64,000 nucleotides of DNA from Aphrocallistes beatrix (Eukaryota; Porifera; Hexactinellida; Sceptrulophora; Aphrocallistidae): NCBI GenBank assembly GCA_963281255.1, contig OY725504.1, positions 1,798,001 to 1,862,000 of the forward strand, written 5' to 3'. The translations under genes were made by a program, and so were the position numbers. This document shows, one piece after another, positions 9,231-60,272 of the stretch. Under the pieces are notes generated by a model, which worked only from the letters and a program-made list of their open reading frames with translations, ran no database searches and had not been told where the DNA came from. Within the stretch, counting starts at the first letter, position 1, and every line of letters begins with the position of its first letter.

Positions 9231-9294
9231 TAATATGTGTAAACGATCTCTTAAACTATCCACGTATTCTGAAGCCAAAACAAAGACTTCTGTG

Positions 9295-12080: not shown

Positions 12081-12300
12081 ATGGCTTTATTGGATACGAA
12101 GCAAATGAATTTAAAGATCTTGTTTCTCACTGACGTCAATCTATTTAATTGCAAAAAATATCTTCAAGAACCTTTTGAATATTTTTCTCATCAATTTTTT
12201 AAATCTAATATTTCTGACGAGTTCACTATTGTGGATTTTCCAGATATTACTATCAGTGAAGCTATTAAAGTTCCCGAAACTTTAGCTACTAGTTATTTAG
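12081..12300 (+). CDS. TRAPPC13: TRAPPC13 coding exon 1
   Basis: It starts at the first ATG after an in-frame TGA (12036) and encodes MALLDTKQMNLK and onward to LATSYL plus the first base of a Gly codon. The donor is TTTAG|GTATTA. The N-terminus is shorter than the human one before the conserved LK-x-x-x-LT block. Confidence 0.85.
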
Positions 12301-15300
12301 GTATTATGATAAAATACTATAAAATTCTTTTTGATTATGATGTTTTAATAAGATAAACGGTGTCATTTCTTATCATAGATTTGTCCGAGCCATACGCTTT
12401 CGGGACGCCAACAATCTATGTGTGCATCAGGAGGTTTGTAAGAGCCAATTGGCCAGCGTTAAATCACTGGGAACTAGCGCCTATTATCTTCATTCTCAAT
12501 ATTAACATCCATGGCTATAAACAGAAAAGTAACAGAGTTTATTTATAGAATTAAAACGCTTTTTTTATTTATGCATTATTACATATATTGACTATTATAT
12601 TGGCTATAGTGATAGTTCCGCACATGACCACACTCACATATCATTGAAACCGTTTAGTTGTTAGTGTATTTTGTTTTTCATGCATATGTGCAACGAATTG
12701 ATTGAAGAAACTGCTAGGCAAGAAAGCTTATTTTTGAGATATCATCTCTAAATATGTCCATCTTAGTTTTAAAATCGATATCACTCGAAAAAACACCAAA
12801 TTTGTCAATTTTTAAAATTTTGATAAGTAATGATGACGTCATAGCAAAGTGATGAGTCATCATTTTTTGATGATAGTTGCATCATATGTGAGACGTGTTA
12901 GTATACAGATTCTATCAAAATTTCAGCTTCTATCTCCTATAATAGCGGAGTTATGCCCGAATAACTGTGTTGTTTAACTTTTAAAAATGTGACAATGACG
13001 TCATAATTCCATGATGAGTCGACATTTTGCTCTGAGCTCAGAACTTACTGGAGCCATAGCCAAAAGACTCCCACATGCCAAAAATTAGCTTTCTGTGCCC
13101 GCCAGTTTCTTCAATCAATTCGTTACATATATATAAACAAGCGCGCTTCGCTTGCTTGCGTTGCGCGGCTGGCAGACACTTCGTGTCCGCCGGAGGCTCC
13201 CTTCGGTCGCCTGGATGTGACATTGGTTAATTATAAGGGAGATATCATCTCTAAATATGTCCATCTTAGTTTTATAATCGATATCACTCGAAAAGACACA
13301 AAATTTTGATGAGTAATGATGACGTCATAGCAAAGTGATGAGTAATCATTTTTGATGATAGTTGCATCATATGTGAGACGTGTTAGTATACAGATTCTAT
13401 CAAAATTTCAGCCTTCTATCTCCTATAATAGCTTCCGGGCGCAGAAAGCTGATTTTGGCATGTGGAAGTATTTTGGCTATGGCTCCAGTAAGTTCTGAGT
13501 TCAGAGCAAAATGTCAACTCATCATGGAATTATGACGTCATTGTCACATTATTAAAAGTTAAGCAACACAGTTATTCGGGCATAACTCAGCCATTATGAG
13601 AGTTAGAGGGCTGAAAATTTAATAGAATCTGTATAGTAACACGTCTCACATATTATGCAACTATCATCAAAAAATGATGACTCATCATCCTGTTATGACG
13701 TCATAATTACTCATCAAAATTGACAAATTTGGTGTTTTTTCGAGTGATATCGATTTTAAAACTAAGATGGACATATTTAGAGATGATATCTCCCATATAA
13801 TTAACCAATGTCACCTCCAGGCGACCGAAGGCCTCCTCCGGCGGACACAAAGTGTCCGTTAGCCGCGTAGCGCAAGCAAGCGAAGCGCGCTTGTATATAT
13901 TTATAACCAGTTGACTTTTGGCATTTTGAAGTCTTTAGGCTATTAATCCACTCAGTTCTGATCTCATACGAAAATGTCGACTCATCATGGAATTCATTGT
14001 CACCTTTTTTATAAATAAAATTTCAGTTTTTCGACTATACCTCACCATTTTAGGTGAAGGAAGGCTGAAATTTTAGTAGACTGTACATAAATATTATTCG
14101 CATGTACTACAACTATCATCGAAAAGGATCACTCACTCATCACTCTTAAGACGTCATCTTGGCACATTAAAAATTGAAAAATTGACTAATTTGCTTATTT
14201 CCGAGTGATATCGATTATATCTGTAAGACAGACGTTTTCGAGATGTTTTCTACCTTATAATTAATCAATGTGAGCCTAAGTGCCCAAAGGACGCCTCTGG
14301 CGGCTGCGAAGTGTTTGACCGCCGCGCAGCAAAAACAAGCCAAGCGCGCTTGTATTTGTATCAATCGTTCGGTGCATTCTCGTTTCGGTCTTACATTCCA
14401 CCAGTGGTTCTCAACCTCGGGGTTGCCATTAACATTCCTTGAGGTCGCTAAACAATTTATTGAGGTATTTAATGTAATTTGACATTAATGACATTTTATC
14501 CGAATCCTTATTTTGAGCTCAATTCTGGTAACTAAACCTCCTACAAATGCCATGTTTATGCTATTATTCACATATAACATGCAGAGATCAAATATAATAT
14601 AATTTATAAAGCCCTCAGTGACAGTAAATCAGTTCCATTTACGTATATAAGTAATTCATAATGTCATCTTTGGTGGATTGCAAAGTTTGAAAATTGTTTA
14701 ATGGGGTCACGAGAGAAAATTTGTTCAGAGCCACTGAACTACACGATCAATAATTAGTATCCCCACCCCAACTAAATTGCAGGTCAAAAAATTGATAGCA
14801 AGTTAAAAGTAGTAGTGAGTAACTAAACCTAAGCTTAAATGGAGGAAAAAATAAAATGGCTAAGAAATTCCTATAACATTCTTTTTTCCTTTTCTCGAAT
14901 CCAAGATTTGACTTCAAAACACAATCCTGTAGGTCCAATTACCGAAAACGTGATCTTTACCCCTCTTATTTTAGATTTTATCAATTATTTTTTGAAAAGA
15001 ACAATACGATCTTCATTCATTAACAACTCAATAAAAATATGAAAAGAAGAAAGTGATGTAAACATATGATATAAAAACTTTTTTCATTATAAAAAATTCC
15101 CTTATTTGACTTTGTTGAATACTGTGCGTTAGGACAATCCCTTTTCAAAGGACCAGCAGTAATCTACCATCATATGTATGTGCCTTCTTCTTGATACCGC
15201 TGTTCAATCACTTTTATGTCTTGATGGAACAATTCACCCTGCTCTTCACTCAGAGCATCATGATTTTTCGGAAATCTGTCGAGATGGTTTCTCACATAAT

Positions 15301-18300: not shown

Positions 18301-21300
18301 ATTTGTCCATTGTATTCCTTAGGGGATCAGCTTCCAATTTATATATTGGTTTATTTTAAAAGGACAATTATTGTGGTTCCTACATTAGATTTTTTGTGCA
18401 TCGGTTTGAGGGAGTCCCTTTGAACGTGATTTTGGGGTTCCTTTTGATATATTTCAGTTCTGAGCAAATTTAGATTAAAACTGATCCCTCCATCGAATTC
18501 TACGCATCAACTATCATATAGATTGAATTCTCTGAAGTATTATAGTTTGAGGCTGATGGAATACTATGTTTTGAAGTGGTTTACTACCATTTTTGTCCCA
18601 CTTTTTGAGTGGCGAAAATTGACAAAAAATCCACTAAAAGTAGCATGATATTTTTTCAACACGAGCAATACTATTGAACACCTCCCGTTTACTTTTTCAC
18701 ATTGGTTCTTAATTATTTAACCTTTTAATGACCTTATTCTACGATTTTCACAACTTTTATTCTCCAAATTTAGTTTTAAGCCATTTTCAATGGGGAGATT
18801 CCAACTTTTCGACACTACCCTAAACCGATGCACAAAAAATCTAATGTAGGAACCACAATAATTGTCCTTTTAAAATAAACCAATATATAAATTGGAAGCT
18901 GATCCCCTAAGGAATACAATGGACAAATTGAAAATATCCTATTTTCACTATCATTTGAGATACAGATATGTGATGAGAACTTTTTGAATGCCCTTAGTAC
19001 TTCACTTGATTTGTATATTGACCAAATTCTTCCGAGAATTTCTCAATCGTCTATTTTTGTTTTGTTTGTAACCGATTTGCATCGACTCTCCGAATTCTGT
19101 CGATCAATGTTTTTGATAAAAATATAACCACTTTTGCTTCATTAATCGAGAATCCATCTCTCCAATCAAATTTTTAATCGTTTAAAATCAGGAATCGAAA
19201 GTCATAATTTGTCATCAATCTTTATATTCAATTGATCTTTTAAATACATGGAATCCAGTTTTTGTGCTCAAAGGGATTTTCCTAGGAATGGGTAATATAG
19301 TTATAAAAAGGGAGGTTGACCCGACTCTAGGAATGGAGTTAGATCTTTGAGCATCCCGCATAAAGAATTTGGAATGTTGCAGCGTTTTTGAATGAAAGTA
19401 ACTAACTTTTCTACATTGTACTTGTATATAAAATCAGAAATATTAGTTACATAGGGTAAAAGAAAATGTCATTGAAACTAGCTCTTTCAAACGTTCATTT
19501 ATTGTTATTATTAGGATCTAGATTCCAGATATCATATTTTCGATATTATATTGATTTTTAGCCAACTATCAATGTATGTTGTTGCGCGCCTGTGTATCTA
19601 TATATACTACACTGCCTGACCAATATTTATACAAAAATTGAAAAATTGACCAATTTGTTGATTTTTCGAGTGATATCGATTACAGCAGTAAAACAGATAA
19701 ATTAGGGATGTAATCTTCCTTATACTTAATAAATGACAGCCTAGGCGCCTCTTGGAGGCACAATGTATTCGACAGCCTTGCAGCGCAAGCAAACGGATCG
19801 CGCTTGTCATAAATAATATTAAAGTGATCTATCCATGGACAGCAATTCATTCAAACCACGACACCAAATGAAACTCTTGCATCAAATTTGATATCTTTGA
19901 TCTCTGATTACTGCGTTTGAAGATTCTCATAGATTAATCATTTCCAGAACATAATTACTATCAACTGTGTCACCTTGTTCCACTCGTCACTTGTCATAAC
20001 CATTATACACAAGGTAGCGCAATTGATATAAATTACCTTTTAGGCATTCTCAATAGTTAGAAAACTACTGAACTGAATAATCCTAGCTTGCAGATTCGAA
20101 TTCGAAGGCAGATTTTCAGTAGCTGTCGTGGTTTGAATTAATTGGGTGATGGACTCATTTTAATATTATTTATGATGTAAAGCAATATGCTGTTCGAATA
20201 TTTAAGCCATACATTGGATATATATATATACGATATATATAACAAACACTATTTAAAAATACTTGCCATTTAATTATTTCTTTCTAGGCGAATCACTCTC
20301 TTTTATCCTTTGCATCACGAATGATTATTTATGTGATAATGTTTCTCAAGTAAATATTAAACTAGATCTGAGAACTCCCAAATTTCGAAGTACCATTTTT
20401 CGAGAAACTCTTATTGATTCAATACCGCCTTCTTCTTCAGTGAATAGGTTTGTTTACTTTGAACTTAACGACTTAGGTTAGTTACTTGCTACATGCTACA
20501 AGTATACAAAACATTTATAAATTTCTCATTTAAATATTTCCAAATTCTAATCTATTAAATCAAAGTGTTGTATATTTTAAATCTGTATTTGTACTTTACT
20601 CCTAAAGGTTCTATCAAACTCAGTTGTTGATCAGGAATCATGCAAAATAGGAGCATGTTATATACAGGGTGACCAATAAGTTATTTCCCAAGCTTGATTA
20701 GGTATAAAATTTCTTATACTCAAACAATCTTAGTTATTATGGTCTTTAGAGATTGTAATTCGAATTATCCTTACTATTAAAACTCGATGATTGTATATAT
20801 ATATATATATATCTGTAACGAATTGATTGAAGAAACTGCCGGGCGCAGAAGGCTGATTTTTGGCATGTGGGAGTCTTTTGGCTATGGCTCCAGTACGTTC
20901 TGAGTTCAGAGCGAAATGTCGACTCATCATGGAATTATGACGTCATTGTCACATTTTTAAAAGTTAAGCAACACAGTTATTCGGGCATAACTCAGCCATT
21001 ATAGGAGATAGAAGGCTGAAATTTTAATAGAATCTGTATACTAACATACCTCACATATGATGCGACTTTCATCAAAAAATGATGACTCATCACTTTGTTA
21101 TGACGTCATCATTACGCATCAAAAAATTTTAAAATTGACAAATTTGGTGATTTTTCGAGTGAAATCGGTTTTAACACTAAGATGGACATATTTAGAGATG
21201 TTATCTCCCTTATAGGCGACCGAAGGGGGCCTCAGGCGGACACGAAGTGTCCGCCAGCCGCGCAGCGCAAGCAAGCGAAGCGCGCTTGTTTCAATGATTT

Positions 21301-24300
21301 TGAAAGATTTCTGGGAGTCTATGAACTGTGTTTTGTAGGCTGAATTTTTTGATCCTGACTCGCAGCCAAAAGGCCCAATGCTTCTGTAAAAAAATGTCTT
21401 CATAATCGATGTTCATGACGATTTAGCACCAGATACCTTGCATTCAACACGGAAATATTTCATAAATCCACTGAATTCATTATCAGAAATGAGAAAAAAA
21501 TTGTTCATTCACCATTCAAATTCCCAAAATTCTGAACCAACTGGTTCTCTAAATCAAATTTAATATTTCCAAACTTAACGATTATCCAAATTTTTTTTTT
21601 AGAAAATCAAGAACTGCATTGCATGTATGAGCTCTTTCACCATCTTGCTGAAACCACAATCCCTTTCATGTCGTAGAATACCATTTTTTTGGCCGAACCT
21701 CTTCTTTTAACATTTTAAAGGTCTTTCGGTTCACAGAAGCTGATTTTCCTTCGTATCAATGAAATAATCGATTTTTGCACATTTCCATCCCGAAATCCTC
21801 TCCAAGCCATTATTTATCCCCTTAAGGCCTATTTGAAGTCACATAAATATTCAGATTGCTATGAGCCCAGATCCGAACGTTTCGGTGATTTAGGTTATTG
21901 TAGAAGGACTAACCACCTTTTATACTGAATATACCATTTGGAAAAATTCGGCGATTGCTGCCTCGCCCGTGAATGAATTCCTTGCCCTGCATTAGGATCT
22001 GTTGAGGTATAAGCATTCATAAAAGTACCATTCTCTATAGTGCTTTCCATATTAAACAAAAATGCCAACTAAGTTTGGAAGAAGCTGTTACAATTTCCTT
22101 TATGTTGTGACTAGTATATATTATTCCCTTTACTGGGTGGGAAATAAGTTCTGCCCCTTTGATAAAATGCCCGCAACTTAATTATTAGTGATTAGATTGT
22201 ATTCAAAATTATAGGAAGTAACTAGTACATACTATTTGTTTTAAGAGATGCCTTCAACTTTCAATATACCCACCCTTCTTTTTGATTACAGCCTTGAGGC
22301 GTCTGGGAGCGACCTCAACTGGAATTCGCGACGTTTCTTGAGGATTATTGGCCTATCCCTTGACTAAAGACTTCCTCAAATTTCGATTTGGCTTAAAACA
22401 AGCCTTTCCTCAAAAATTGGTCAGATTGAAAAGTCCATTGGGTTCAGGTCTGGACTGGAGGTCGGGTCATTCTTAGACAAAAACCCAAGGTTTTCATTCT
22501 GAAGCCACTCTTGAGTTATTCTGGCCGTGTGTGCAGGAGTACCCTCTTGTTGGAATAGAAATGCACTGTTATTGAACATGGTTTCTTCGATATTTTAGCT
22601 ACAGGCTATATAATGTGCTCTCTGTAGGTGTTTGCAGTTATTTTTACTCCAAAAGTACGAAAACTAAGGGTGTCCGACTCTCAGCAGAGATCCCCGCTGA
22701 AACCATGATATAACTTGGTTTCTGTGCTCTATTTACCAATCGATGTTCTTTATGGATAGAGGAGACTGACTGTGATAAAACTTTGTCATTTCTCCTGTTT
22801 AAACAGGCAAAATGACAGAATTCTTTTAGTCAATGGATTGGCCAATATTCCTCAAGAAACGTCGCGTATTTCAGTTGAGTACGTTCCTAGATGCCTCAAG
22901 GCTGTAATCGAAAAGAAATGTCGGTATATTGAAAGTTGAATGCTTTTCTAAAACAGATAACATGTCATTACTTCCTATTAAATTTGAAGACATTCTAACC
23001 TCTAATAATTGAGTTACAGTATTTATCAATGGGGACAGGACTTGTCACCTACTCTGTATATAATTGATCGAATCAATATTACGCCCTTTTGTCTCCCTGA
23101 ATTTTCTCAACTAGGTATTATATTTATTATCCTTCCATCACGGTTTTCTCCCCAATATGTAGTAGCTTAGGTTTCAGATAACAAAAAGTTCAAGATATAT
23201 GTGTGCTTAGTACATAATGCATACACTTAGATTCAAACAACATAACTTTTGGTGTATTAATTAAATTTGGTATTTGTGGCATGACTATACTCGTATATAG
23301 TGTATTCCATGGCTGGTCAATATTATTACAGTGGAATTCGCTTATTAGCAACTCGAGTTTTGCTCATAAAATGGTTGCTAATACGCGAAGTTGCTAGTAA
23401 GGGAACAGAATTAACACAAAATCTTCACTTGGGACCTGAAGATTGGTTGCTAATAGATCAATATTGCTAATAAGGGAGTTGCTAATAAGCGAATTCCACT
23501 GTATGTCTTAAAACTTTTAAAATTCCCTCGTACTTGGGAATTTGACGGTCAAGGTTTCAGGATGTAAAGATAGACCGGAGATTCGTCATCTTTCCATCAA
23601 AATGACGCTAGCTGTTGGCAATTTCAATTTATTTTTGACCTTGCATGCATTCCGGAGCATCCCAGTGGGGATCATCCTAGGCATTTGCCCCAAATTTGAT
23701 TTTGCGGCCCCAGATTTCATTCGACCGCCTAAGCCTAAATCATAAGAAAGACCCCGGGAACCTTTTTCTTTGGATCTGCCTCGCCCCGGTTTGGAAAAAT
23801 CCTGAGACCGCCCCTGTATACATAAATACGATATATTCGATATTAAATATAACAAGCGCACTTCGCTTGCTTGCGCTGCGCTGCTGGCGGACACTTCGTG
23901 ACAACGGAGGCGCCCTTAGGGCGCCTGTGGTCACTTGATTAATTATATGGGAGATAACATCTCTAAATACGTCTGTCCTACTGTTATAATCGATATCGCA
24001 CGTAAAATCACCAAATTTGTCAATTTTTAAAATTTTTAATGCGTAATTATGACGTCATAACATAGTGATGAGTCATCATTTTTGATGATAGTTCCATCAT
24101 ATGTGAGGTATATTAATATACACATTTTATTAAATTTTCAGCCTTCTATCGCCTAAAATGGCTGAGTTAGGGTCGATAAACTGAAATTTCTAACTATAAA
24201 AATGGTGACAATGACGTCATAATTCCATGATGAATCGACATTTTCGTCTGAACTCAGAACTTAGTGGAGCCATAGCCGAAAGAATCCCGCATGCCAAAAA

Positions 24301-24325
24301 TCATGTTCTTCTTCAATCAATTCGT

Positions 24326-24356
<31 letters not shown>

Positions 24357-24814
24357 TGGAACCTGTATATAACGGCCACCGAAGGGACTGGACAAAATTG
24401 GCCGTTATACACAGGTGACCGTTATATACATTTGATTGTCTTAATCACCAAAAAGAATCAACGTAGTGCAATAAATCTAAGTTTTTAGAAATCCATTACA
24501 TGAAGTCAATACATGAAACTTGTTTATCGTTCGTAAAAGATCCTGTAATTAATACATAAAAAGGTGAAAAAGGTGATGGTCGTTATAGACAGGTTGTGGC
24601 CGTTATAGACAGGTAGTGGCCGTTATAGGCAGGTGATGGCCGTTATAGACAGTTTAGGTGCAGTAAGGGACTACAAACGGGTGGCCGCTGGCCCCGTTGA
24701 GCAGGTGACCGCTATACACCGGTTTAATATTATGGAATTTCGGACGAGACTGTTCATTGGTGATCGCTATAGACAGGTGACCGTTATATAGAGTGACCGT
24801 TATAACAGGTTCGA

Positions 24815-24863
<49 letters not shown>

Positions 24864-27800
24864 TAAATATACATTAATCGAGTTTTAATAGTAAGGATAA
24901 GTATTATACTAAATGTCGTTCCATTGTCTAAGGGCATGTTAAACTTTTAAATGATGAATATTACGATACTATAGATCATACTAAGTTCTTTCCTAATAAA
25001 TTGAAAAATATCGCCATTAACAAATAAGTAGTAAGTATAATGTAGTATAGCTAAATTATTTTTAAACTCATTTTTTTGGTTTTGCAATATGATTGAGGAC
25101 CTGGGAGATGGTTGAGATGTGAAATTTGGCACACAAGTGAATGATAATCGATCTATCATTGGTTCTTGTGTGAACCAATCAATTATCAAGGAAATGGAAT
25201 TTACACTTATATTTCATATAAAAGTTTGATACAGCAATTTTGTGTTTATTATTTGATTGTTAAAAGTTATTTAGTGATCAAATTGATTGATCATAAGCAA
25301 CAAAAAAACTGAAGACAAAAATATCCGAATACATTAGAACTCGGTTAATACGTACCCCTTTGGGAAGTGGAAAAAAGTACGTACTGCCATAAGTTCGTAC
25401 TAACCAAGTTGATATTCCATATGAATCTATATAATAGATGAATTCTGGTTCAGAGAAATTAGTACGTACTAAGCCGAAGTACATTGTATCACGAATAAGT
25501 ACTACTCAAGTTCTACTGTATTTTATAATGAATTTACATGAATAGAACGATTTATACTTCAAAGATTTGATGACAAAACCCCCGATTTAAACTGTACTAT
25601 TATTATTTAGTAGTCTAATTAATAGTAAAGCAGCATTTCTAGTCGAAGATAGCGATGATTTTACTCATTTCACCCAGATAGATGAAATATAATTCCCATT
25701 TTGTTATTGAAATTTGAAATTAAAGATAACTCATCTACGGCCTACTTAATACACTGCCGTGTATGTCACAGACAAGGCTAGTTTTGACAGAATCCAAATT
25801 TAGTTTAGAGCGATAAATCAAAAACTGTATACGATAGACCTTTGAAATGTATTATCACCGTATACAAACATCATATCAGAGTATTCAATTCAACTGTCAA
25901 AACGTTGATATGTCATCATGTGGTTGCGCAATAGGCTCTTTTAACATCAAAAATGATGCTGTTCTAGTTCATTTAAACATAACTATCTGGATTTGTAATG
26001 CTTGATTTTGATAGTAAACAAAAGGAATGCCTTAATCGAAAAAATCCGAAATTCTTAAGTAGAATGTCTATGCATTCCTTATTTGCTATGGAAACAAAGT
26101 ATCAAGTTATTACTTCAATAATATGTGTTCACACGTTTATTTTAATATTCTCTGAGTTATCTGGAATTTAATCCCGATCTATTGAGAAATAATGAGAATT
26201 GACAAAATCCTTGATAATTCAGATAGTATTGGAAAAACTAGTGAACAGTATTATTATTATATAGGAAATAATAGCTTGCGGATGGTATGATTTCTTACTA
26301 TCTACAATACACTAACCGGACAAAAGTATTTGCACACTTCATTATCTCACGTACATTTAATACTAAAATGGGTCTATCCATGAAGATTGAAACTTCGAAA
26401 CGGTTTGTGATACAACTAATCGGGTTTCAAATTCGAAATCTTCGCATTCGAATTAGTTATTGCAGGAAATTTCTAATCAATTATTGATTCCCAATGTTTT
26501 CAAATCATCAATCACTGCCACTTTGTGCCACATATGTCCATTTTTATCACTATACATGATGGTGATGTACTACCTCTTGTGTCACGGGTTGATAATTTTA
26601 CTAATTGGGTTGACCAATCTATTTAGAAATCTTGAACTATTACTAATTCGAATGTGAAGATTCTGAATCTTAAATCAGACTCCTAATAGCTCTTAGAGTT
26701 TGAATACATTCCCTTCATGGAAAGAGCCAATTTACTACTATTTGTATGGGGAATAATATAGTGTACAAATACTTTTGTCCGGTTAGTGTATATACCTTTT
26801 GAGTAATGGCATAAAAATGAGAAATGCATAGACATTCCAATTAAGATTTTTGGATTAAGATCTTCCTATTGTTGTCCTATAAAAAATCAAAGCATTAGAA
26901 ATGCAGATAACGATGTCTAAAATGGACTAGAGTAGCAGCATTTTTCACTCTAAAAGAACCTATTGCGAAATCACATGACGACATATCAACTTTTGTGGTA
27001 GGTTTTCAATACCTAGTAGAGGAACTCCCCACAATTTCAAATGCGAAGATAAAACGTGGCAACTTCCACAGATAAAAGCGCTATATATAGATAATGAATT
27101 TCTTACTATGAGTAGCGTCGAAATAAAGATTTGACTCAACCTTCGTTTGAAACTCAACAAACTTGACGTTATACATACATTGAAAGGGTCAACGCTGACT
27201 CTAAATTGTTTCTGTTGATTATCCGGTCTTGCATTTAAAATCGATTTCACTCGAAAAATCATCAAAATTGATTTTTTAAATTTTTGATGCGTAATGATGA
27301 CGTCATAACACAGTGATGAGCCATCATTTTTGGATGATAGTTGTATCATATTTGCGATATATTAATATACACATTCTATTAAAACTTTAGCCTTCTATCA
27401 CCTAAAATGGGTGAGTTATAGTCGAAAAACTGAGATTGCTAATTATAAAAAAGGTCACAATGACGTCATAATTTCATGATGGGTCGATATTTTCGAGGCC
27501 AGAACTTATTGGAACCATAGTCAAAAGATTCCCACTTGCCAAAAATCAGCTTTCTGTGCCTGTCAGTTCTTCAATCAATTCTTTACAGATATATATATAT
27601 ATCACTACCTAAAAAATGATGTTTCAATCTTTTGGAGAGACACCAATGAATTATGTTAATTTTTAGAGAGTACATACAGTGCAATTCATAATTATTGCAA
27701 CTTACACATCCTATTAAAACTAGACCATAGTTTCGAGTATTTGAGCATTTAGGTAACATTCTACATGTTTTACAGATACTTACACCATGTTTAAGGTAAA

Positions 27801-30800
27801 TGTTGGCTAATTAAATATTTTTCCACGCTTGTTCTATTTTTAGACTTGAACATTTGTTGATGACGTCATCACCGCATATTATTTTTCTTTGAGTTAGATT
27901 TCTTATTCACTTAGTATTGTTTCTGATACTATTATGGCCCAGGAAGCTACTAGAAACAAAGTTGTAGCATTAATTCAGGGAGGAAGGCACAGTGCGATCG
28001 AAATTGCGGTGTAGTGTAAACAAAACAACGGTTTACAGAATCAACGAACGTTTCAATAGAGGAGAATCACTGCGTCACAAGAAAGGAGCAGGTAGGCCGG
28101 ACATTCTACGTAAGAAGATCGCTTTATCGTGTACGAAATACGTTTCCAACGATAAGCAAAACCCTACCATGGAATAGCTGAGGAAATAAGCCGGAAACGT
28201 GGCGTTAATGTCTCAACCAGTGCGGGATACAGTTGTCAAGAATCTCTAGATTATTCGAAACCCTATCCGATTCATGTGCTGATGTTATCTGAAAAGAATC
28301 GCCTCGCACGTCAAGTGGGCTGCAAGGAATAAAGATAGGGATTGGTGTCATGCTGTATTTTCAGATGTGGCTAGTTTCTGGATTCAGAGCACGAATGTGG
28401 TGCAAAGGTTCAAAGAGTATGTATCAACCAACAGTCAAGCATTCAGCAAAGGTAAATATATGGCTGCGTTTTCTTCATTTGACACATTCCCTCTGTGTAT
28501 TTACACAAAACTTGGATTCACATTTCTTTGTCAAGATTTTGAAGTGGCATTTGTTGGAAAACGCTAAAGTTTTTCATGGTACAAAGTGGTTTTTAATCCA
28601 GGATAACCACCCGAAACATACTAGTCGTAGGTGCAAGGTTTGGATGACCGAAAATGTGCCAAATAACCAACTAGATTGGACCAGCCAAAGCCCAGACATC
28701 AACCCAATAGAGAACTTGTTCGGTTGGATGAAATATAAACTCAATCGAGATAGACCCAAAACAATTAAAGACCTAAAAGCACGACTGGGAGATATTTGGG
28801 ATTCTATCACCCCAGAAATTCTTGAACCTTATTATAGTTCAATGACACGCCGTTGCCAGATGGTGGTAGAAAATAACGGTTATAAGATAAACAAGCGCGC
28901 TTCGCTTGCTTGCGCTGCGCGGCTGGCGGACACTTTGTATCCGCCGGAGGCTCCCTTCGGTCGCCTGGGGTCACATTGGTTAATTATAAGGGAGATAACA
29001 TCTCTAATTATGTCCATCTTAGTGTTAAAATCGATTTCACTCGAAAAATCATCAAATTTTAAAATTTTAAAATTTTTGAAGAGTAATGATGACGTCATAA
29101 CAAAGTGATGAGTCATCATTTTTTGATGATAGTTGCATCATATGTGAGGTATGTTAGTATACAGATTCTATTAAAATTTCAGCCTTCTATCTCCTATAAT
29201 GGCTGAGATATGCCCGAATAACTGTGTTGCTTAACTTTTAAAAATGTGACAATGACGTCATAATTCTATGATGAGTCGACATTTTGCTCTGAACTCAGAA
29301 CTTACTGGAGCCATAGCCAAAAAACTCCCACATGCCAAAAATCAGCCTTCTGCGCCCAGCAGTTTCTTCAATCAATTCGTTACAGATATATATATATATA
29401 TATATACAATAATCGAGTTTTAATAGTAAGGATTATTGATCTTAAACATCCCTATTTGATATTAGAATTATAAAAAGTACAAACTAATTCATATAAGATA
29501 ATAATATGGGCTCAAATATGGAGTTGCAATTAGAGATGCACCGGATATCCGGTTTATATCCGGTATCCGGACATTTTCGTTGATTTGCCGGATATCCGGT
29601 CCGGCCGGATAATAATAAGTATCCGGCCGGATATTAATATATTGACAAAATTCATGAATTGATGAAATACTACAGTAACAAACTCAAATTATACACTGCG
29701 CTATAACAAACTTATCGAGAGACTAATAATGGAAATCGAATAATCCTAAATTTTTCTGGATAAAGAGAAGACATTCTCCCTTTTCTCGTAACAATTTGTT
29801 ACGCTTTTCTTCAAATACAATTCCAGCACTACTAAATAATATTTCACTATAAACTGAACTAGGTGGAGCCCTAAATATTTAATCGCAACCCCAACTAAGT
29901 TTGGATATGACAAAGCATTATCCCATAAAGTTGCTTGTGAAAGTACTGCAAATGATTCCATAGCGGAGTTGTACTCTAGTTTTTTGGAGTTTTACTTCAC
30001 AATAATCGTCGAGCACTCTTTACATATAGCTCTTGAATTGTCAGAGCTGTTGACAACAAAAATCGACCAAATCTCACTCATTGTGAAGTTAATGTGAACC
30101 TATTATCAATTGCAATGTGTAGAAGCTAATAATTGTGAACTTTATAATACCTATGTATTATTCATAGTTAAAACATTGTGGTCCTCAGTGGGTAACCAAT
30201 AATATCCGGTATCCAGCCGGATAACCGGATAATTGGAGGCCGGATATCTTATCCGCCCGGATAGGTAATTTTCCTATCCGGTGCATCTCTTGTTGCAATA
30301 ATTATGAATTATACTGTATGTAGGTGCTTGCAGAAAAAGAATTTCATCAATCGTTTAAATCATTTGCTCTAGTTATGCCACCCTCCTTCTGAGATCAGAA
30401 ACCTCTAAAAATTATACTTTCATTTTTTTCTGAAACAATTTGTCAACAGAAATAATACCATTATTTGATATACTCTGCGACATAAATGATGTTTAATATC
30501 ATGGTAACTATAGATTTGTCAAAGTACAAAAGGTTTCTGAATTAGGGACTTGACTTTTCGATTTTCCATAATATTCAGCAGAAATTTGTCTAATTTGTCC
30601 ACAAAGCCTTTCCCTAGCATATTATGCATATTTAAATGCAATCAATTCATTATATCGTATAGACCAATCATGATTAATAGTTATATATTCATTTAAAACC
30701 TTCTTATATGATTTACTTCAAGTTAAAGAAACTATTCGCATGGTGTCGGACATGATAATTCTCCCCCCCCTTTTTCAGAATTTGTTTAACTCCCATTACC

Positions 30801-33800
30801 GTATACATATATACTATTTGGTATATATCCAGTTAATGTTGCATTTACTATAAAATCAGAATTATCTGCTCGTTGATTCGTTCCTTTATCCATTATTCAT
30901 TCGAAAGTCACTAGTCTTAAAAGCAAAGTAATATATATAGGGTGTCTCAAAAGTTCTGCAACAACCAATTTTACTGTGTTAATTGGACTAAGATCACTTG
31001 GTTTTAGTCCAAATTAGCCTCCATAAATGAAATCTAGCACCCTTCTTGCATAGAAATGAGCTTAACTCATTACGCAAAAGATATTTCTTATAAAATTTTA
31101 AATAATTACATTCCATTGACTCCAAAATTCGGAGCTCAAAAGTGTCAAGTTTGGAGATCACTATTTTTCTGATGAAATATTACATTAATCACTTCTATAT
31201 TCTGTAATTGATTGAAATACTAAAATAATATTATTACTTTTGATTTATGTACGGAAATCTTCTATAAGAACGCGAGTATTTTTAAGTATAGACGTCAAAT
31301 GTACCTGGGATATGAGTTTTTTTATTGAGATAAAAAATATTCTTTACTAGACAACGATATATATGATCCATCATTGAAAATAAAATGAGAAAAACAGGCC
31401 ATTGGGAGTGCAAAATAATTAAGATAATCCTCCCTATTTTTGATTAAAAAGAGGTATCGGATATTCGATCTATTTATCTATGTATAATGCATCTGCAATA
31501 TTTGTTGCAGAACTTTTGAGACACCCTGTAGTATGCCCATGGTATCAGACATAATATTTTATTTTCAGAATTCAAATTTCCTTTTTTATTCTACTATTGA
31601 TCAAAGAAATGTTAGATGGATATTAAAATACGTACATATAATCACTGATTACTCAATGCATGAATATGCGTATAATCTTTGATACATTCTTGAAGTATTA
31701 GATTATCTTTATCTTTATTTTATGATATCCCCTATACTTTGTGCGTTAAATTCAACGACCGCTCTTAGGACTTTGTTTGCTCCATTGAAGCGACCTAAAA
31801 CTTCCTTAAACGTGCGATGAGATTATTCAAGCACTGATTCTGCGAAGTATCCAAGGCCCAGAGGTCTTGAATCTGGGCGATTAGCATTTACAGTTAGTAA
31901 GAATTCCTCTAGATGGTCAAGTAGTATGTGAAGCTTTGTGCTTGGTATTAAATTATGGATGGTAATTTGCTGAGCTTTGATATATGTGTCTTTTGTTGAT
32001 TCCAATTTCAAATGCTCAAACTCTCCCTCAATTCCAAATTCAACTTTCTTTCAACTTTTTATCCGACTTTGTAATATCTTGTGCTATTCTTTGTTGCATA
32101 TCAACATATGCCTTTTGAAAGTCTTGTATAGAAGCTTCCAAACCTTATAATAGTATTTTCCCAAACACTTTGTGTTTTAACTTACTTGCAGACGGTAGAA
32201 CAGGTATGAGGGGACTAAGAGCAGGAAATTCCTTAGCTTCTTTGAGATATCACCCGTATATGTTCCACCATGATATTGCTGCCTAGGACTTACTAATGGT
32301 GCTATAAATGACTCTTCAAACCGCTTATACTCATCTTTACCTAAAATCTTTAGTGGGATTATGTCCAACAATTTTTCACGAAGGCCTAGAATTCCATGTA
32401 CGGGAGCTATGGGAAAGGATTGTAGGGGACTTTCGAAATTAGTGAAAATCCGAGAGCGAAAAATACCATTCTTTGGAATACTATTGGGCACTTTTAAATT
32501 GTTCGTTAAATTTCGTATACATTTCATCAAAATGGGTTCCAGTTCGCGAAATTCCAGGCTCACCGTTAATTTTATTGTACAAACAATAAGGACAAGGATG
32601 ACGAGCATTTCCACCTTTGATTCCTAGAACCTGACATAATCCTCTAAATCACAAGTTAGTACATCATTTGGTTGATCTAAGGTTAGATCAAGAAGCCTTA
32701 TAATTTGCTCTATATTAAATGGAGTTTCAATACAATCTGCTACTGCCACTATTAATGTTCCTTCTACACTATCGACAAACTGAAGACCGTGAATTAGGCT
32801 AAGGACAACTTTTAACCAACCCTGGCCATGATTAATGCCATGACGATTTAGTTGACTTGGTTTTCCACGAATTTCTTCAACTCGTTTTAGGAGGTTATCA
32901 ATATTATTACAATATCTGACTTCAGTGGGAGATTTAATGTCATTGTTGTCTTCAAGTTGAACGATCGCAGATTAAAATAAATCAATTACATTCTCCTTCT
33001 CAGGATTTGGGTATATCGAGTGTTTGGTGTACGCTTCATAAATTGGCATATTGTGTGCAATTGATCATTTGTCAAATTAAGTTCTCGTTGAAGTCCTCTT
33101 TAGAAGTTTGACCTTCATCGACATATTTCCATAACCAAGAAGTGGTATAACATTGGGCATCGAAGAAGCTGCTCGTTGATGTAGTATAGTCGATACAACT
33201 GTATCGCTAAGCCCTTTTCGATTTAATGTATCGATAATATTTTGCACGGAGTTACGCTTTGTTCATATATGAATTTTCTTTATAGACAAGCATTTTCGAC
33301 ACTTAACTGGCGTTTGCCTAACCCAAGTGTTCTGATTATCTCGCTCAAGTGGATTTGTATCAAATTGTGCTGCCTCGTTATCCATATTGGAGATGTGTCT
33401 CAAGGAGAACACCACTAGGCTTTGACTTTCTAGTGCAAATTTCGAGTTTGTGAAGAGCAGTTACACATGATTTGCACAATACACATAGAAAGAAAGGGAT
33501 AATCTCTGGAGAATATGCTATTTCCTTTTCTATATCGATATCGTGACTTTATTTTGGATATATGCGATATAATATCAACTCATTGGAGTTTCACAATTTT
33601 CGAAGAACATAGTCGACAAACATTTTTCACTGCTTCTAAATGATATGATGACATTGTGATACAAAGTGGATTAATATATGTTTATTTTAGTAAATAAACT
33701 AATTGTTTGAGTTCTATTTCAGAAAGTACAAAATATCAAATGGGTGGATGAAGTAATTCACACACTAATAAATATTCTACAGAGCGTGAACATTTAATCG

Positions 33801-36800
33801 AATTTTATAAGAATTCTGAAACATACGATAAATACAGATAATTCGACAATGATTAAGGAATACATACTTGCGTATCCTTGAAAAGTCCAGAGCAATAATC
33901 TTTTAAAATTAGAAAACAGATTAAATATATTTCGATCATTTTATGCTGGCTGACTTTGTTCCGATATGGCTAGTAATTCAACAAATCTCAGTGAAAGATG
34001 ACATAAATATACAAATATCATGCTTGTGGCTTTCGAGTTAATAATGGATAAAGAAACGAAGCAACGAGCAAATAATTCTGTTTTTATAGTAATGCAACAT
34101 TAACTGGATATATACCAAATAGTATATATGTATAATGGAAGTTAAACAAATTCTAAAAAAGGGGGGAGAATTATCATGTCCGACACCATTTGAATAGTTA
34201 CTATTACTTGAAGTAAAACATATTAGAAGGTTTTAAATTAATATATAACTATTAATCTTGATTGGTCTATACAATATGATGAATTGATTGCGTTTAAATA
34301 TGCAAAATATGCTAGGGAAAGGCTTTGTGGAGTCCCTAATTCAGAAACCTTTTGTACTTTGACAAATCTATAGTTACCATGATATTAAACATCATTTGTG
34401 TCGAACAGTATCAAATAATGGCATTATTTCGGTTGACAAATTGTTTGGTATTTTTAAGTATTTTTCGAGGTTTCTGAATCCAGACGGAGATTGGCATAAC
34501 TAGAGCAAATGATTTAAACGTTCGATGAAATTTTTTTAATGCAAACACCTACATATGTACTCTCTAAAAATTAACATAATTCATTGGTGTCTCCTCCAAA
34601 AGATTGAAACTTCATTTTTCAGGTAGTTATATGAATTTACAATAATCGAGTTTTAATAGTAAGGATATTTCCTTTTCAAGTCACATCTAAATCCTCTCAA
34701 CATCTACTCAGGTTCGCACTGTTGCCTCCTCCTGCTTCTACAACATCAATAACATCCCGTGTATTAGAAAGTGTCTCTCTGTGGAAGTCTGTGAAGCTCT
34801 CGTTAATGCTCTTATTACATCTCGACTTGATGACTGTAACAGCATATTGTATGGTTGCCCCTCATCCCTCTTACCTCGACTCCAGCGAGTCCATAGCCGT
34901 GCACCCAGACTTATCTACATTGTCTCCCGTACCTTTTCGTCATCTCCTCTTCTTACCAAACTCGACTGACTGCATGTAAAGGATACCGCCCGCGAAAAAC
35001 GATATGATTTGGCTTACAACTTATGATAAAAGTAGAGCTATATGAGATGTTAAGCGTGGGAACTTATCTCCTTCTAGAAATACTTACGCTTCCAAACCGC
35101 TTTTGATTTAGATTTCAAGTTTTTAGATATTGTGTCTCAAAGTCTCTTTTTATCCTTTTTTGTTAGCACATCCCAATGGTAGGCACCCGGCCGCTCAAAA
35201 GATTTAAGACATACCAAGGAAATAAATGCTTCCAAAATCGAATCATAGATAGTCTATCATATTTGCCACCTCATAGGACCAAAAGAAAGTTAAAATGACA
35301 TTCGAATTCTCCATATTCGATTCGAATTCGAATTCTCGAATTCGATTCGGATTCGAATTCTCCATATTCCAATTTCTCATTTTATAACATTTCCACTGGA
35401 TTAATCAATTAAAACTTTTCAAAATAACTAATAATATCTTAAAAAACAGACTTTAATAACATTTAGAAGCAGGCTTAAGAGAGCTTAGTAAATCGCCAAA
35501 ATCTTGCTTTAAATGAACTGTTGTGCAATGATATGATGATCAATGGAAATTTTAACAACGAATATATATTTTGATGCCATATTTATACAGTAGCTAGACT
35601 CAAGTTTTCAACAACCGCAGAAACCTCCCTACAAATAGTATTAAAGTGGGTCTATTCATAAAGAAATATGTTCTCAAATTATAAGGAATACAGTAGAACC
35701 TCTATATTTGGGAACATTTTTTTGCCTTTTTTGAATAGATCCAATTGGATACTATTTGCATTGAAGATTTCGTGGTGGTCAAATACTTTTTTATGGGTAG
35801 TATATACAGGGTGTGCTAAAAAAATTGAGACATTTTCTTTTTACATATTTTTGCAATATCTTTTATTTGATAAAAGGAAGATTCCAGTATTATGTTTATA
35901 TATCATTACTTTGTCATAATTATTTATTGAAAAATTAGCATAGTTTAAAATGAACGAATTAGAGAAACCGCAAAATGGTAGAATCGCTATATCTAGTGCA
36001 TCAGAAATATTCACTTTTTTAAAACATGGAAATATCTTTCGTGCAACAATATATCGTGCTGTTAAAAGGCTATGGCATAAGTATGTCTAGAAAGGAAGGA
36101 TCTGGCAGAAAAGTCAAAGACCAGACAAAAATAGCTGATCGTCTTAGACGTAATAATAATAATAGTATACATTTATATAGCGCAGATTCCATATTAATAT
36201 GTTCAAGTGCGATGTACAATTCAATAAAAGTAGGTGTGTGTTATGCATGTATGTATGTATGTATGTATGTATGTACGTATGTGTATATATGCGTATGTAT
36301 GTGTATATATGCGTATGTATGTGTATGTATGCTTGTAAGGTATGTATATGCATTGAAATTAATTTAAGTGGAGAAAATATTGAATTCTGGTACAAGAACG
36401 ACTGGCCACCAAATTCCCCAGACCTGAATCCTCTTGATTATGAGATATGGGGTATTCTCGAGGCTGATGTCTACAGAAAACCCACGAAAAGTTTGGAAGC
36501 GTTGACGCGAAGGATTCAGCAGACTTGGGATTTTCTTCAAATGACCATTGTTAATAACTGTATTGATTCGTTTAAGAAGCGCCTTAGAAAATGTGTAGAT
36601 GCTAAAGGAGCTTGTTTTGAATAAAATGTGAAGATAAATGCATTGTTATGATACTCTTGTGGTAAATTCTAGTTTTGCATCGTTTTGTGTTTTGTCTCAA
36701 TTTCTTTGGCGCACCCTGTATACTAGTGTATTACATTGTTAAGGTCTAACCTACTTGGTTAATGATTCTAAGCTGATCGTGTATTAATCCATTCGGCTAT

Positions 36801-39800
36801 TAATGCATCCTTGGTTATTTTACTGCAAGGCATTATAATAAGCAGGCTATGATTATACTATTATAACAATTATATATTTTTATATGGACAATATTTTACA
36901 GAGGCAAAAAAAATGGAGGGGGGAAAAGAAACTTGGAGGAAGGTAATTACACCTCCCCGAGGCCCTCGCTCTAGAAGACCCTTGATTACTTTTCCGCACA
37001 GTGGAAGTATTAAGTAGCGGAAAGTTAGAATTCCCACTTGACGGAGATCATTTGTAATTCTTACATTACCAAGTTAGTCATAGGATATTGGGATTGAAAT
37101 AGCTAATCCGATCACAGATCCAAAGAAGATTCACAGCCTTCACCTCCCCATTAGTAAACCCAGTAGGGGGTTATATGTCAATCTCTTTTGTAACTTCTTC
37201 CGAAATCCCATTTAAATATCCTTGGCCCGGGCTTTAGAAAACTAGTATACTTTAATAATTCAACAGTAATTGTAATTTGATATTTAATTTTGGCAATTAA
37301 TAATATTTTTCGAGTAATTGTAGGATATTGTAATCGAAACAAAATGGTCCCTCTCACAGACGGGATTGGAGTGTGCTTCCAAATCATTGTGAGAATAGAA
37401 ATGTGAAATGTTATCATTTATTAACTCCCTGTAGTCCCATTTTAACCCGATCACTCCTACAAATGAAAGCTCTCAACCAGTGTATTATACAGCCTTCCAG
37501 AGATACACTCCTAGGCTCATACTCAATTATTTCCATACGCCTAAATCAATAGATAACATTTCGATTTAGGGTAAATTAAGTAATATTCTGAATTTTACTC
37601 TCCAAAACCTTTCAGGCTTAAAATTATGTGCGGCTTGCAGACACTGCGTGTTCGCATAGTCTCCCTGTGGGCCCCTGGAGTTACTCAATCTAACCCATTT
37701 TGTGATTTTTTTTTTAACTTTACATAAATATTGTATACAAAAGTTAACAAATAATTTATCATGTAAGCCAGAAAATATGATATCCGAAATCTACACCCTA
37801 AAAAACCCATGTCACCCGATGGAAGCTAGTCTCTAGCATATTTTTCAAAATTCGTCAAATGGTGTAGAAATATGTATATAAAGGTGTGAAAATAAGCACA
37901 TAATCTTTTTTATTGCTATATTCTATTATACATTTAAGATATCAAACATAAGTTGTGGCTTTGAAGTATTTTTATAACAATGACAATCTATTGTAGTGTC
38001 TACAATGATTTCTATTGTAATAGTGTTAGTGTAGTAATATATTTTGTACAAGCGCGCTTCGCTTGCATGCGCAGCGTAGCTGGCGTACACTTTGTGTCCG
38101 GCAGAGGCACCCTTTGGCACCTGGGCTCACATTGATTAATTATAAGGGAGATAACATGCCTAAATACTATGTCTGTCTTACTGTTAAAATCGCTATCACT
38201 CGAAAAATCATTAAAGATACCGCCCTCGAAAAAACATATGATTTGCATTACAGCATACGATGAAAGTAGAGCTATAAGAGATGTTAAGCGTGGGGAGGTA
38301 TCTCCATCAAGAAATACTGGCACATTCCAAACCGTTTTTGAATCTCATTTCTAGATTTTGAGATACAGTGTCTCAAAGTCAGTTTTTTTAATTTTCCGCT
38401 AGCACATCTTAATGGTAGAAATTTAGGCACTCAATGAATTGTTTAGGACATACCAAGGAATCAAACGCTTCCAAAATCGAATCATAGATAGTCTATCATA
38501 TTTGCAACTTCATAGGACCAGAAGAAAGTTAAAATGACAAATATTGTAAATTTTATCGGTGTCCGAAAAAAAAGGGCCAAAAATGTCTGTTTTTGGGGGG
38601 AAATCAAGAATAAAATCACCGAGTTAGAATATATCCAAAAAATGGTGGTCCTACCTGCATCGCCTAATGATATGGAACAACTCTTGAAATTTTTAAACTT
38701 CTATCTCAAACCAAATTTGAGAAATAATTCTGTAAAGACGGTCAATTTTGAAATTTCAAAGTCCCGAGATATGGAGATTTTAAGTTTAGGTGTTAAGAAG
38801 AATGTAAAATGAGTTATTAATAATGCACATAAGCATCCACAGACATTTATTCGCATCTATACTGCTGATTTAAGTATATTAAAGCCAAATATTTATCAAA
38901 AATAGCAAAAGTACCCTCAAAATCCACAAATTTCCTTGAGGCCCCTAACTCCGAATATTTTGAGATAATTGTAGATAATATTTCATATTCCTGGCACTGC
39001 GAAGTATAATCTATCAGTTTAGAATGAATAAAAAGCTTCCAAAAAGTATATTAGGAAGTTAGAGCTTTTTATAATGTCCAAAGGTGCTAAAACAATGTTA
39101 AGGTTCATATCATTAAAAAAATATCAAATAAGTTAAAAACTAATTGGTAAATCAGTTAAAATCCTCCAATAATTTTTCAATATTTATTAACGCTAAACTT
39201 TAGGGGGTTATTTCACAAAAAATAAAAAAAATTGCCGTCCAAATAGTGCTATCAGATGGTTGACCGATCAGTAATACAATGAAATTAGCAATAAAACATT
39301 TTGCCTTTTATTTTACGCCAGGCAAGATTTTTCGAGGGCGGTATCCTTAAATTAATCAGTTTTAAATTTTTGATGCATAATTATGACGTCATGACATAGT
39401 GATGAGTCATCATTTTTTGATGATGTATCATATGTGAAGATTATTATTATACATATTCAATTAAAATTTCAGCCTTCTAACACCAAAAATGGCTGAGTTA
39501 TTGCAGAAAAACTGAAATTTCTAATTATAAAAAATGGTGACAATGACTTCATTATTCTATGATGAGTCGACATTTTCGTATGAGCTCAGAACTTAGTCGA
39601 TTCATTGCCAAAAGACCCCACATGCTAAAAATCAGCTTTCTGTGCTTAGCAGTTTCTTCAATCAATTCGTTACATATACACTGCCTGAACAAAAGTATTC
39701 GTACACCCCATAATTTCCCATACAAATAGTTATAATACAGATTTATTTAGCGAGTCAAGGTATTTAATTGGTAAGAGATACGCTTAATTTAACTTCAAAT

Positions 39801-42800
39801 TCGAATTCTCCATATTCGAATTACTCATTTTATGATCTTTCCGCTCGATTAATCTCCCACAAGGTTCAATATTCTCAGACTGTGCCACCTCGTACCACTT
39901 ATGCCATCATCTACAATGGTGATAACTCGTGATACTATATGCCATAGGGTAGCAAATGCCGAAAATACTTAATTTTGAAGGAGAGCAATTAAGTTAAAAG
40001 CTTATAAAGTGGGTAATTTGATTGTGGAGAATTCGAATTTGAAGACAAATTAAGTGTATCTTTACCAATTAAATACCTTGACTCGCTAAATAAATCAGTA
40101 TTATAACTATTTGTATGGGGAATTATGGGGTGTACGAATACTTTTGTTCAGGCAGTATATATGTATATACAGTCGAACCTGCTATAACAGCCACTCTATA
40201 TAACGGTCACCTGTCTATTGCGGTCACCAATGAACGGTCCCGTCCGAAATTCCATAGTATTGAACCTGTGTATAGCAGTTACCTGCTCAACGCGGCCAGC
40301 GGCCACCCGTTTGTAGCCCCTTACTGACCTTAAAACTGTGTATAACGGACATCACCTATCTATAACGGCCACTACCTGTCTATAGCGGCCATCACCTTTT
40401 TCTTTTTTCACATTTTTATGTGTTTATTACAGGACCTGTTACGAACGATATACAAGTTCATGTAATTGCTTCAAGTAATGGATTTCTAAAAACTTATATT
40501 TATTGCAGTTGATACTTTTGGGGATTAAGACAATCACCTGTATATAACGGTCACCTGTATATAACGGCCAATTTTGTCCAGTCCCTTGGGTGGCCGTTGT
40601 ATGCAGGTTCCACTGTATATATACTATATACTATATATACAGACATTAATCGAGTTTTAATTATAAGGATTTGAAAAGGTGTTAAAAATTGTTTTCCATT
40701 TGGTGTGAAAATTTCGCTTAGAACTTGATCGTTGTCGTATTATTTGACAAAATAACGAATATCATAATACAAATTGCAATATTTATAACTCTAGAAGTTA
40801 TATGCATTTTAACATCTTACAATGTGTCCGAATGTGGACTTATAGTGGCATTTAGGGGTGTTCTATCGGAGAGATCTTTTAATGAGATTTTAGTATGTTA
40901 CTAGTTACCATCCCTCATTCATTTACTATTGAACTAAATTATGTAGCAATTTGTTCCAACTGGGCCGAAAAATTTTCTTAAGATTGACTGGACTATTAGA
41001 AGAGGCATATTGTTTGTGTTGTTAACTATTATGTGTGCCTCTTCTGAGACCTATCTTCAATTGACTCCCTACGAGAACAAAGATCCTATTGTTAGTGGTT
41101 GATTCCGAACAGACCTCCCCTCCATTAACTAAATCTTGGATATCTTGGATATTCCTTGGTGTAACGATGGTATGTGCAGATTTTGATGTAAGTTTTTGCT
41201 CTAGTAAAATTTCACTTGAATTAAAAGCCGTAAATTCCTCTGTTTTTAGATAGCTTATCTTCAAAAATGTTTATCTCAGAAATTACTCGATCAAATTTCA
41301 CAAAATATAGTATACAGGGTGGCTTATAAGTTCTGTCCCAAGCTTTATTAGGTTTAAATTTCTTAAACTCAAACAATCTTAGTTATTATGGTCTTTAGAT
41401 ATTGTAATTCGAATATTTTCAATGATTTTAAAAGATTTTTCGATTCTATTACTTAGAAATATGTGTTAGAAATATGTTAGAAATATTAGAAATATGAATA
41501 TGTTAGAAATATAATTAGAAATATGAGAAAAAAAATGTGTCCTGGCACGCAGCGAAAATCGTGAATCAGGGCCCACTGCTTTTCAAGTTATCTTCCCAGA
41601 GTCTTCAAATCCTAGGAAAAATTAGCTCACACATTTTCCTCGAATACTATAAATTTGTAGAAATATAGAATGTTTAGATCAGTATATATTGAGAACCTTT
41701 TGGATCAGATTTTTTGGTGATGTGAAAAAAAGTGCCATTTGGGTGATTTTGCAAAATGTGCCTAATTTGAAGTCGTGAAATAATAACTTTATCTCGTTTC
41801 TGATAATGAATGCAATGGATTTGTGAAATATTTCAATGGTGAATGAAAGGTATCTGGTGCTAAATCGTCATGGAACATCGATTTTTGAGACATTTTTTAC
41901 AGAAGCAGTGGCCTGGATTCTCGATTTTCGCTGCGTGCCAGGACATATTTTTTTTCTCAAAACTCACCATACAAACATATTTCTAAGTCATAGAATCTAA
42001 AAATCTTATAAAATCATTGAGAATATTCGAATTACAATCTCTAAAGACCATAATAACTAAGATTGTTTGAGTTTAAGAAATTTTATACCTAATAAAGCTT
42101 GGGGCAGAACTTACAAGCCACCCTGTACTTAATAGAATAATATTTAGACTATGAATTAGATGCAAATATGGGAGAAGTATGCTAAACAACATGTGCAATA
42201 GTAGGGCTAATTAGGAACTAATTGAGTGCATTTTGTGTATCATTTTCTTTATATTTAGATATCTATAGGGACACATACTATTTCTTCCGAGATGATTTAC
42301 AAGAAAAATGGTGAAGATCTAAATTATAATAAATCTATATCATTTGAAGTTCAAAAACCAATTGATATTAAGACTAAATATGTCAGTCCTGAACTCTTAA
42401 ATTATCTCTTATTTGAGATGAGAATTCAAAATATTTCTCAAGAAACATTTTATTTTAATTCACTATCCCTTAAATCCCCTTTGAATTATGAAGTATTTTC
42501 TCTAAATCAAAAAGAAACAAGTCTCACTTATGAACTTCAACCCAAAGAGATTTGTAGTTTCCTTTACCGCATTCATCCTAAACAATTAAATTTTAGAATT
42601 CGTAAAGATATTGGAAAATTAGACATTTGTTGGGAGAAGAAATTCGGCAATCGAGGAAGATTACAAACAGGGAACCTTGATAGACCATTACTTTCTTCCA
42701 ATCCAAATATAATGATAACTGTTTTACATTTTCCTAAAAAATTACGAACTAAAGTGCCATTTAATATTAAATTTGAGATTACTAATTGTTCTACTGTTTC

Positions 42801-44959: not shown

Positions 44960-44981
44960 TGAAAGAAGTAGAATGAAAGTA

Positions 44982-45747
44982 CTTAGGGCATTCAAAAAGT
45001 TCTCATCTCATATCTGTATCTCAAATGATAGTGAAAATAGGATATTTCCGATTTGTCCATTGTATTCCTTAGGGGATCAGCTTCCAATTTATATATTGGT
45101 TTATTTTAAAAGGACAATTATTGTGGTTCCTACATTAGATTTTTTGTGCATCGGTTTAGGGTAGTGTCGAAAAGTTGGAATCTCCCCATTGAAAATGGCT
45201 TAAAACTAAATTTGGAGAATAAAAGTTGTGAAAATCGTAGAATAAGGTCATTAAAAGGTTAAATAATTAAGAACCAATGTGAAAAAGTAAACGGGAGGTG
45301 TTCAATAGTATTGCTCGTGTTGAAAAAATATCATGCTACTTTTAGTGGATTTTTTGTCAATTTTCGCCACTCATAAAGTGGGACAAAAATGGTAGTAAAC
45401 CACTTCAAAACATAGTATTCCCTCAGCCTCAAACTATAATACTTCAGAAAATTCAATCTATATGTTAGTTGATGCGTAGAATTCGATGGAGGGATCAGTT
45501 TTAATCTAAATTTGCTCAGAACTGAAATATATCAAAGGGAACCCGAAAAATCACGTTCAAAGGGACTACCTTAAACCGATGTACAAAAATCTAATGTAGG
45601 AACCACAACAATTGTCCTTGTAAAATAAACCAATATACAAATTGGAAGCTGATCCCCTAAGGAATACAATAGACAAATAGAAAATATCCTATTTTCACTA
45701 TCATTTGAGATACAGATTTGGGATGAGAACTTTTTAAATGCCCTAAG
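44982..45747. mobile_element. G-family MITE, copy 2 (766 bp)
   Basis: Ends CTTAGGGCATTCAAAAAG and TTTTTAAATGCCCTAAG are flanked by TA. Its interior is inverted relative to copy 1 (18232-18997), and the length is identical. Both flanks carry a similar block (agtagaatgaaa). Confidence 0.8.
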
Positions 45748-60250: not shown

Positions 60251-60272
60251 AAGGTGTAAAATGCACGATATA

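Follow-up and report, generated by a model that had tools for sequence, protein, structure and literature searches.

The window, the whole stretch of 64,000 nucleotides that we analysed (C18:1798001-1862000 in an assembly of 100.5 Mb and 28 contigs), contains several copies of a repeat, H, that carries an internal (TA)n tract. The initial annotation had placed four foreign elements in the (TA)n of three H copies, and all four were found at the positions claimed (24354, the 27601 region and 38049-40669). H copy 1 starts with its body and the first part of its tract (23853..24353, tract 24326-24353; delimited by sequence, BLAST match to H and the TA run). A 464-bp CAGT-type MITE, recognized by terminal repeats and TA flanks, occupies the tract (24354..24817), and H resumes with the remaining tract (24818-24853) and the AT-side end (24818..24897; sequence, TA run, BLAST match and junctions). 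The TA halves around this MITE are long, 28 and 36 bp. H copy 3 begins with its body and a short tract remnant (38049..39678, remnant 39674-39678; sequence and BLAST match to H), the body being interrupted by a 1.1-kb insertion at 38220-39341. Its tract holds both a Tc1-type MITE (39679..40157; terminal repeats) and a second CAGT-type MITE (40170..40615; terminal repeats and TA flanks), followed by the remaining tract and the end of H (40616..40669; sequence, BLAST match and junctions). The CAGT-type MITEs of the window have TA flanks and CAGT inverted ends; they are putatively pogo-like, the label used in the initial annotation.

The largest visitor, element L, occupies the tract of H copy 2. 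The body of this copy, truncated at its other end, and a tract remnant (27589-27602) cover 27235..27602, as judged from the TA run and the BLAST match; L, with later insertions, follows at 27603..34628, and the other end of H copy 2 lies beyond it at 34629..34665 (BLAST match and junctions). The terminal repeat of L at 27603 recurs inverted, ending at ~34628, with 71/74 positions identical, and a PF13358 DDE_3 match (E 2e-10) lies in 28350-28880, in a coding region that is not intact. By these features, inverted terminal repeats and a DDE_3 transposase remnant, L is marked as a Tc1-type element. Since the missing H end resumes directly after L and continues to 34665, L lies in the H tract. The annotated placement of L thus stands, while its extent had to be revised, L running further than noted, to ~34628. 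L has itself received an H copy (28892..29432; TA run and H ends) with an uninterrupted tract at 29386-29405. Another H copy with an uninterrupted tract (20794-20811) lies at 20767..21291 (TA run and BLAST match to H); when its flanks are joined, they match other repeats. In the window, both flanks are retained around seven H tracts, of which three (near 24326, 27589 and 39674) are occupied and four (297, 20794, 29386 and 63683) are empty. The remaining H copies either break off ahead of the tract or lack a pure TA run of 10 bp.

On the printed strand, H reads CAAGCGCGCTTCGCTTGC ... CAATCAATTCGTTACAG(AT)nACATTAATCGAGTTTTAATAGTAAGGA. Read from its TC end, it has the form TCCTTACTATTAAAACTCGATTAATGT-(TA)n-body-CGCTTG, that is, TCCTTAC...(TA)n...CGCTTG in the opposite-strand reading, and is non-coding and about 0.5 kb long. 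We estimated ~9,500 copies (about 5,500-15,200) from 17 ends in 180 kb of random regions. In the window and 48 fetched loci, the outer base at the CAAGCG end was A in 58/58 ends, 57 of them distinct (locus L001 overlaps the window), and the outer base at the AGTAAGGA end was T in 55/60. Three of the five non-T ends are head-to-tail H|H junctions, and two further junctions of this kind occur in the list of starts (L025 and L044). For two H copies outside H tracts, the joined flanks align to uninterrupted repeats with no duplication. The base after the junction is T in 3/3 relatives of the first empty site; at the second it is T in merely 1/7, which counts against the A|T reading. Taken together, these data show that the insertion site of H lies between A and T and that no target duplication arises, the absence of duplication being demonstrable at the two sites outside H tracts only.

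H shares features with several groups of mobile elements. Like canonical Helitrons, as the available text of PMC4778049 describes them, H has a TC end, inserts at A|T and makes no target duplication; in the same text, insertion at A|T is demonstrated in cells for Helibat/Helraiser. Helitrons end in CTRR, with a hairpin about 11 nt before the 3' end, whereas H ends in CGCTTG in most copies, i.e. CTTG, and its predicted 6-bp stem lies at the very end, with folding scores that resemble shuffles over 25 nt (z 0.03) and differ from them over 51 nt (z −2.61). We therefore rejected H as a canonical Helitron, its ends being CTTG rather than CTRR and the hairpin support mixed. The DINE-1/HINE group of non-autonomous Helentrons, including Cg_HINE, comprises animal rolling-circle elements with microsatellites (PMC4067079, PMC7492417). 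As far as the available text of these sources goes, its members are, like H, short, non-coding and very abundant, leave no target duplication, and have a microsatellite close to one end with a palindrome at the opposite end; in H, (TA)n sits between two parts of the element, near the 5' end. They differ in having subterminal inverted repeats of 11-15 bp and T-rich or TT sites. The longest inverted word common to both ends of H is 7 bp, in a comparison of consensus-like end sequences typed from the loci that found no subterminal inverted repeats of 11-15 bp. Given this and the A|T sites, assignment to HINE/DINE-1 was likewise rejected. The ATons of Aedes aegypti resemble H in being non-autonomous and inserting specifically at AT, and differ in having terminal inverted repeats, which H lacks (available text of PMC3422177). 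With no CTRR end, a mixed hairpin signal and no HINE-type subterminal repeats, H looks like a rolling-circle element and is filed in neither the Helitron nor the HINE family. It probably moves by a Helitron-like rolling-circle route.

We analyzed the origin of long TA runs in 18 random 10-kb regions (180 kb; contigs C1-C4, C7, C9, C11-C14, C16, C18 and C19). All 21 alternating TA runs of at least 12 bp had an H anchor within 80 bp, and none without an anchor was found in the 180 kb; shorter runs, of 10-11 bp, lay beside an anchor in 4/15 cases. By comparison, 97/3,600 random positions had an anchor within 90 bp under the strict search used here, a looser version having been dropped because it matched 410/1,800 random positions. 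These results show that H is the source of almost every long TA run in the sample (lower 95% bound 84%). The proposal that the spread of H brings new tracts is borne out, as H copies carry the tract along. With no non-H runs of at least 12 bp in the sample, the length-matched comparison group proposed in the initial annotation is empty. Two yardsticks took its place: TA sites at large, and the fraction of element ends beside runs of at least 10 bp.

For the first yardstick, we counted exact patterns across the whole 100.5-Mb assembly, with zero matches for each reversed pattern. H tract anchors numbered 2,720, and 32 of them had a pogo-1 end within 30 bp, compared with about 1.3 expected at random TA sites, an excess of about 24-fold. 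The expectation derives from 834 pogo-1 ends, 8.67 million TA in the genome and a tract content of about 10 TA, the mean being 10.3 in a set of 31 anchors. The window contig, C18, contains none of these 32 places, which makes the counts independent of the four window cases. The motif TACAGT occurred within 30 bp of 171/2,720 anchors, where a random continuation of the sequence would give 32. At 431/2,720 anchors, the tract that follows is short, unbroken and closed by an exact far end; the others form one mixed class with extended tracts, altered or missing ends, or different inserts.

The second yardstick pointed in the same direction. In the 180-kb background sample, 1.12% of TA sites adjoin TA runs of 10 bp or longer (bootstrap 0.33-2.1%). 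Such a run touched 194/834 pogo-1 ends (23%, about 21-fold over background) and 286/2,382 ends of pogo-2, a second CAGT-type MITE (12%, about 11-fold); against the upper background bound, the excess was 11-fold and 6-fold, respectively. These findings support H tracts as insertion hot spots for TA-targeting elements, in agreement with the initial annotation.

To describe occupancy locus by locus, we classified by hand the 29 best-matching H loci, excluding L001, the window copy. A DNA element lay in the tract at eight loci (L006, L008, L012, L018, L019, L022, L026 and L028) and an H copy, end or fragment at six (L002, L003, L004, L007, L014 and L025); 14 tracts were uninterrupted and one locus, L009, was tract-less. 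The visitors of H tracts showed at least eight different terminal sequences. Summed tract length had a median of 36 bp in seven occupied H copies versus 24 bp in 27 uninterrupted ones (p 0.10). Occupied tracts are thus slightly longer, and some growth after insertion is possible.

Smaller tallies gave a weaker picture. Chained BLAST matches yielded 10 tract insertions (from 12 rows, two of which, L039 on the plus and L044 on the minus strand, are merely long uninterrupted tracts) versus seven body insertions in H; in random regions the figures were two versus five. As the reference H copy has about nine TA in its tract and 34 in its body, this small chained set alone indicates little enrichment. 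The set misses tract insertions in which the other H end is lost or far away, and body insertions are under-counted in the 30 H loci, whose selection required a continuous stretch of up to 321 bp. Among 47 element ends in the random regions, 39 were TA-flanked, and seven of these, representing five insertions, lay beside an H anchor; this count is not our main evidence because several of the families were first noticed inside H tracts. Against the landing-pad reading, 0/15 pogo-2 ends in the 18 random regions lay beside an H anchor.

H also enters its own tracts. Of 5,263 H ends, 561 (11%) touch a TA run that spans 10 bp or more, compared with 0.84% of A|T positions in the random sample (0.23-1.6%), an excess of about 13-fold. 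At L004 and L025, joining the flanks of the H copy rebuilds the tract region of another H, and at L042 several H copies are chained via TA runs. Since H uses A|T sites, H too lands in H tracts. This self-insertion was absent from the initial annotation.

Overall, we consider it likely that H tracts act as preferred TA-run targets for Tc1-type elements, CAGT-type elements and H itself. Tc1- and CAGT-type elements insert at TA, and a TA run therefore offers many adjacent targets; it may also be a bendable or easily melted one. Every complete new H copy adds one TA run, and Tc1- and CAGT-type elements are found in such runs about 10-20 times above chance; on this account, the preference would arise at the level of the transposase. 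Repeated landing at one spot would let nests grow there, and the spread of H would raise nesting with time. The initial annotation had offered tract insertion as the explanation of the deep nests. It is better regarded as one cause of them, for H|H junctions and insertions into the H body (seven chained cases, five of these in random regions) also build nests.

Three other explanations were weighed. Insertion could be random over TA sites, with harmless insertions in H tracts kept more often; all our data do come from present-day copies. Such differential survival is nevertheless unlikely: the excess also holds over TA sites in general, of which an AT-rich, repeat-rich genome should offer plentiful harmless ones, and a 24-fold excess would presumably need the loss of most other insertions. 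Still less likely is an H-specific pull beyond the TA run, such as a chromatin state or sequence beside the tract. The variety of visitors, whose terminal sequences are of at least eight kinds, would fit a pull of this kind, but TA use by Tc1- and CAGT-type elements makes the TA run sufficient, and as nearly all sampled long TA runs adjoin H, what the data establish is that TA runs are preferred, and not that H itself exerts a pull. The least probable of the three, that the tracts are themselves products, the TA duplicated by Tc1 or pogo insertion having lengthened through slippage on either side (a scenario put forward for maize TAFTA elements in the available text of PMC5907723), would suit the longer occupied tracts (median 36 versus 24 bp, p 0.10) and the 28- and 36-bp halves around the MITE at 24354-24817, but uninterrupted H copies already have a tract (spacer of 12-102 bp in 26/27), the tract is flanked by H sequence on either side, and 180 kb contained no TA run of at least 12 bp that lacked an H anchor.

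Preferential landing of transposons in the TA runs carried by H has partial precedents. In the available text of the sources, three plant groups described as Mutator-like, SaTar including Micron (PMC5907723), MuTAnT (PMC4486113) and Ac-mMITEs (PMC8449440), favour (TA)n or other microsatellites and are often clustered through them. These elements resemble the visitors of H in their concentration in (TA)n or other microsatellites. They differ in being Mutator-like, with target duplications of 9-11 bp outside microsatellites, whereas the visitors here are Tc1- and CAGT-type with TA flanks; unlike in the plant cases as those texts present them, the microsatellite itself is carried by a mobile element. 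In titles and abstract openings, a coverage that most subscription papers fall outside, we noticed no transposon-borne microsatellite described as a target of other transposons. Transposons that target (TA)n in plants and rolling-circle elements that bear microsatellites in animals are known; what is new is their combination, together with self-targeting.

Nesting of repeats is often attributed to chance. In this case, a single abundant element provides a target for several unrelated families and for itself, and because this target is one that the other families prefer, the spread of H changes where they go. H tracts thus make an interaction between transposon families countable, and they call for caution, as TA-microsatellite statistics in such a genome largely reflect one mobile element. 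We tentatively suggest, as a possibility that we rate somewhat below even, that H is a rolling-circle element carrying its own preferred target: it would be the maker of almost every long TA run in the genome, and these runs would take up additional H copies along with a large share of Tc1- and CAGT-type insertions. The result would be a niche that reinforces itself and channels transposon traffic to several thousand tolerated spots.

Several of the 10-bp TA runs lacking a nearby H anchor come from another repeat family, which carries a fixed 10-bp ATATATATAT and is found at 4874-11339 of the window and at 7375-8546 of the fetched region L037. Within this family, ATATATATAT adjoins CAATTTG or CATTTTG/TTGACCATATTTGG, or sequences much like these.

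H copy 3 (38049-40669) has its body interrupted at 38220-39341 by a TA-flanked 1.1-kb element with ends CCGCCCTCGAAAAA, relatives of which lie near 34977, 53478 and 57800 in the same window. At another H locus (L006:443-815), two adjacent MITEs of the pogo-2 family, linked by a TA run, both reside within an H tract.

The 300-bp stretches of the window at 60268-60567 and 63107-63406 are identical and form portions of 523- and 522-bp elements with ends CAGTAGAACCTCTATA; this identity suggests that they moved recently or were duplicated locally. Additionally, a 573-nt inverted pair (18430-19002 and 44977-45549) is 98% complementary.

A row of five H terminal ends without bodies occupies L025:3060-3263, in units of about 40 bp, each consisting of AATCGAGTTTTAATAGTAAGGA and a TA run. 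Head-to-tail H|H junctions with zero bases separating the two ends were found in L014, L018, L020 (1864), L025 (2380) and L044 (reverse strand, 842). Such direct junctions are as expected if H formed rolling-circle concatemers, which would give this arrangement.
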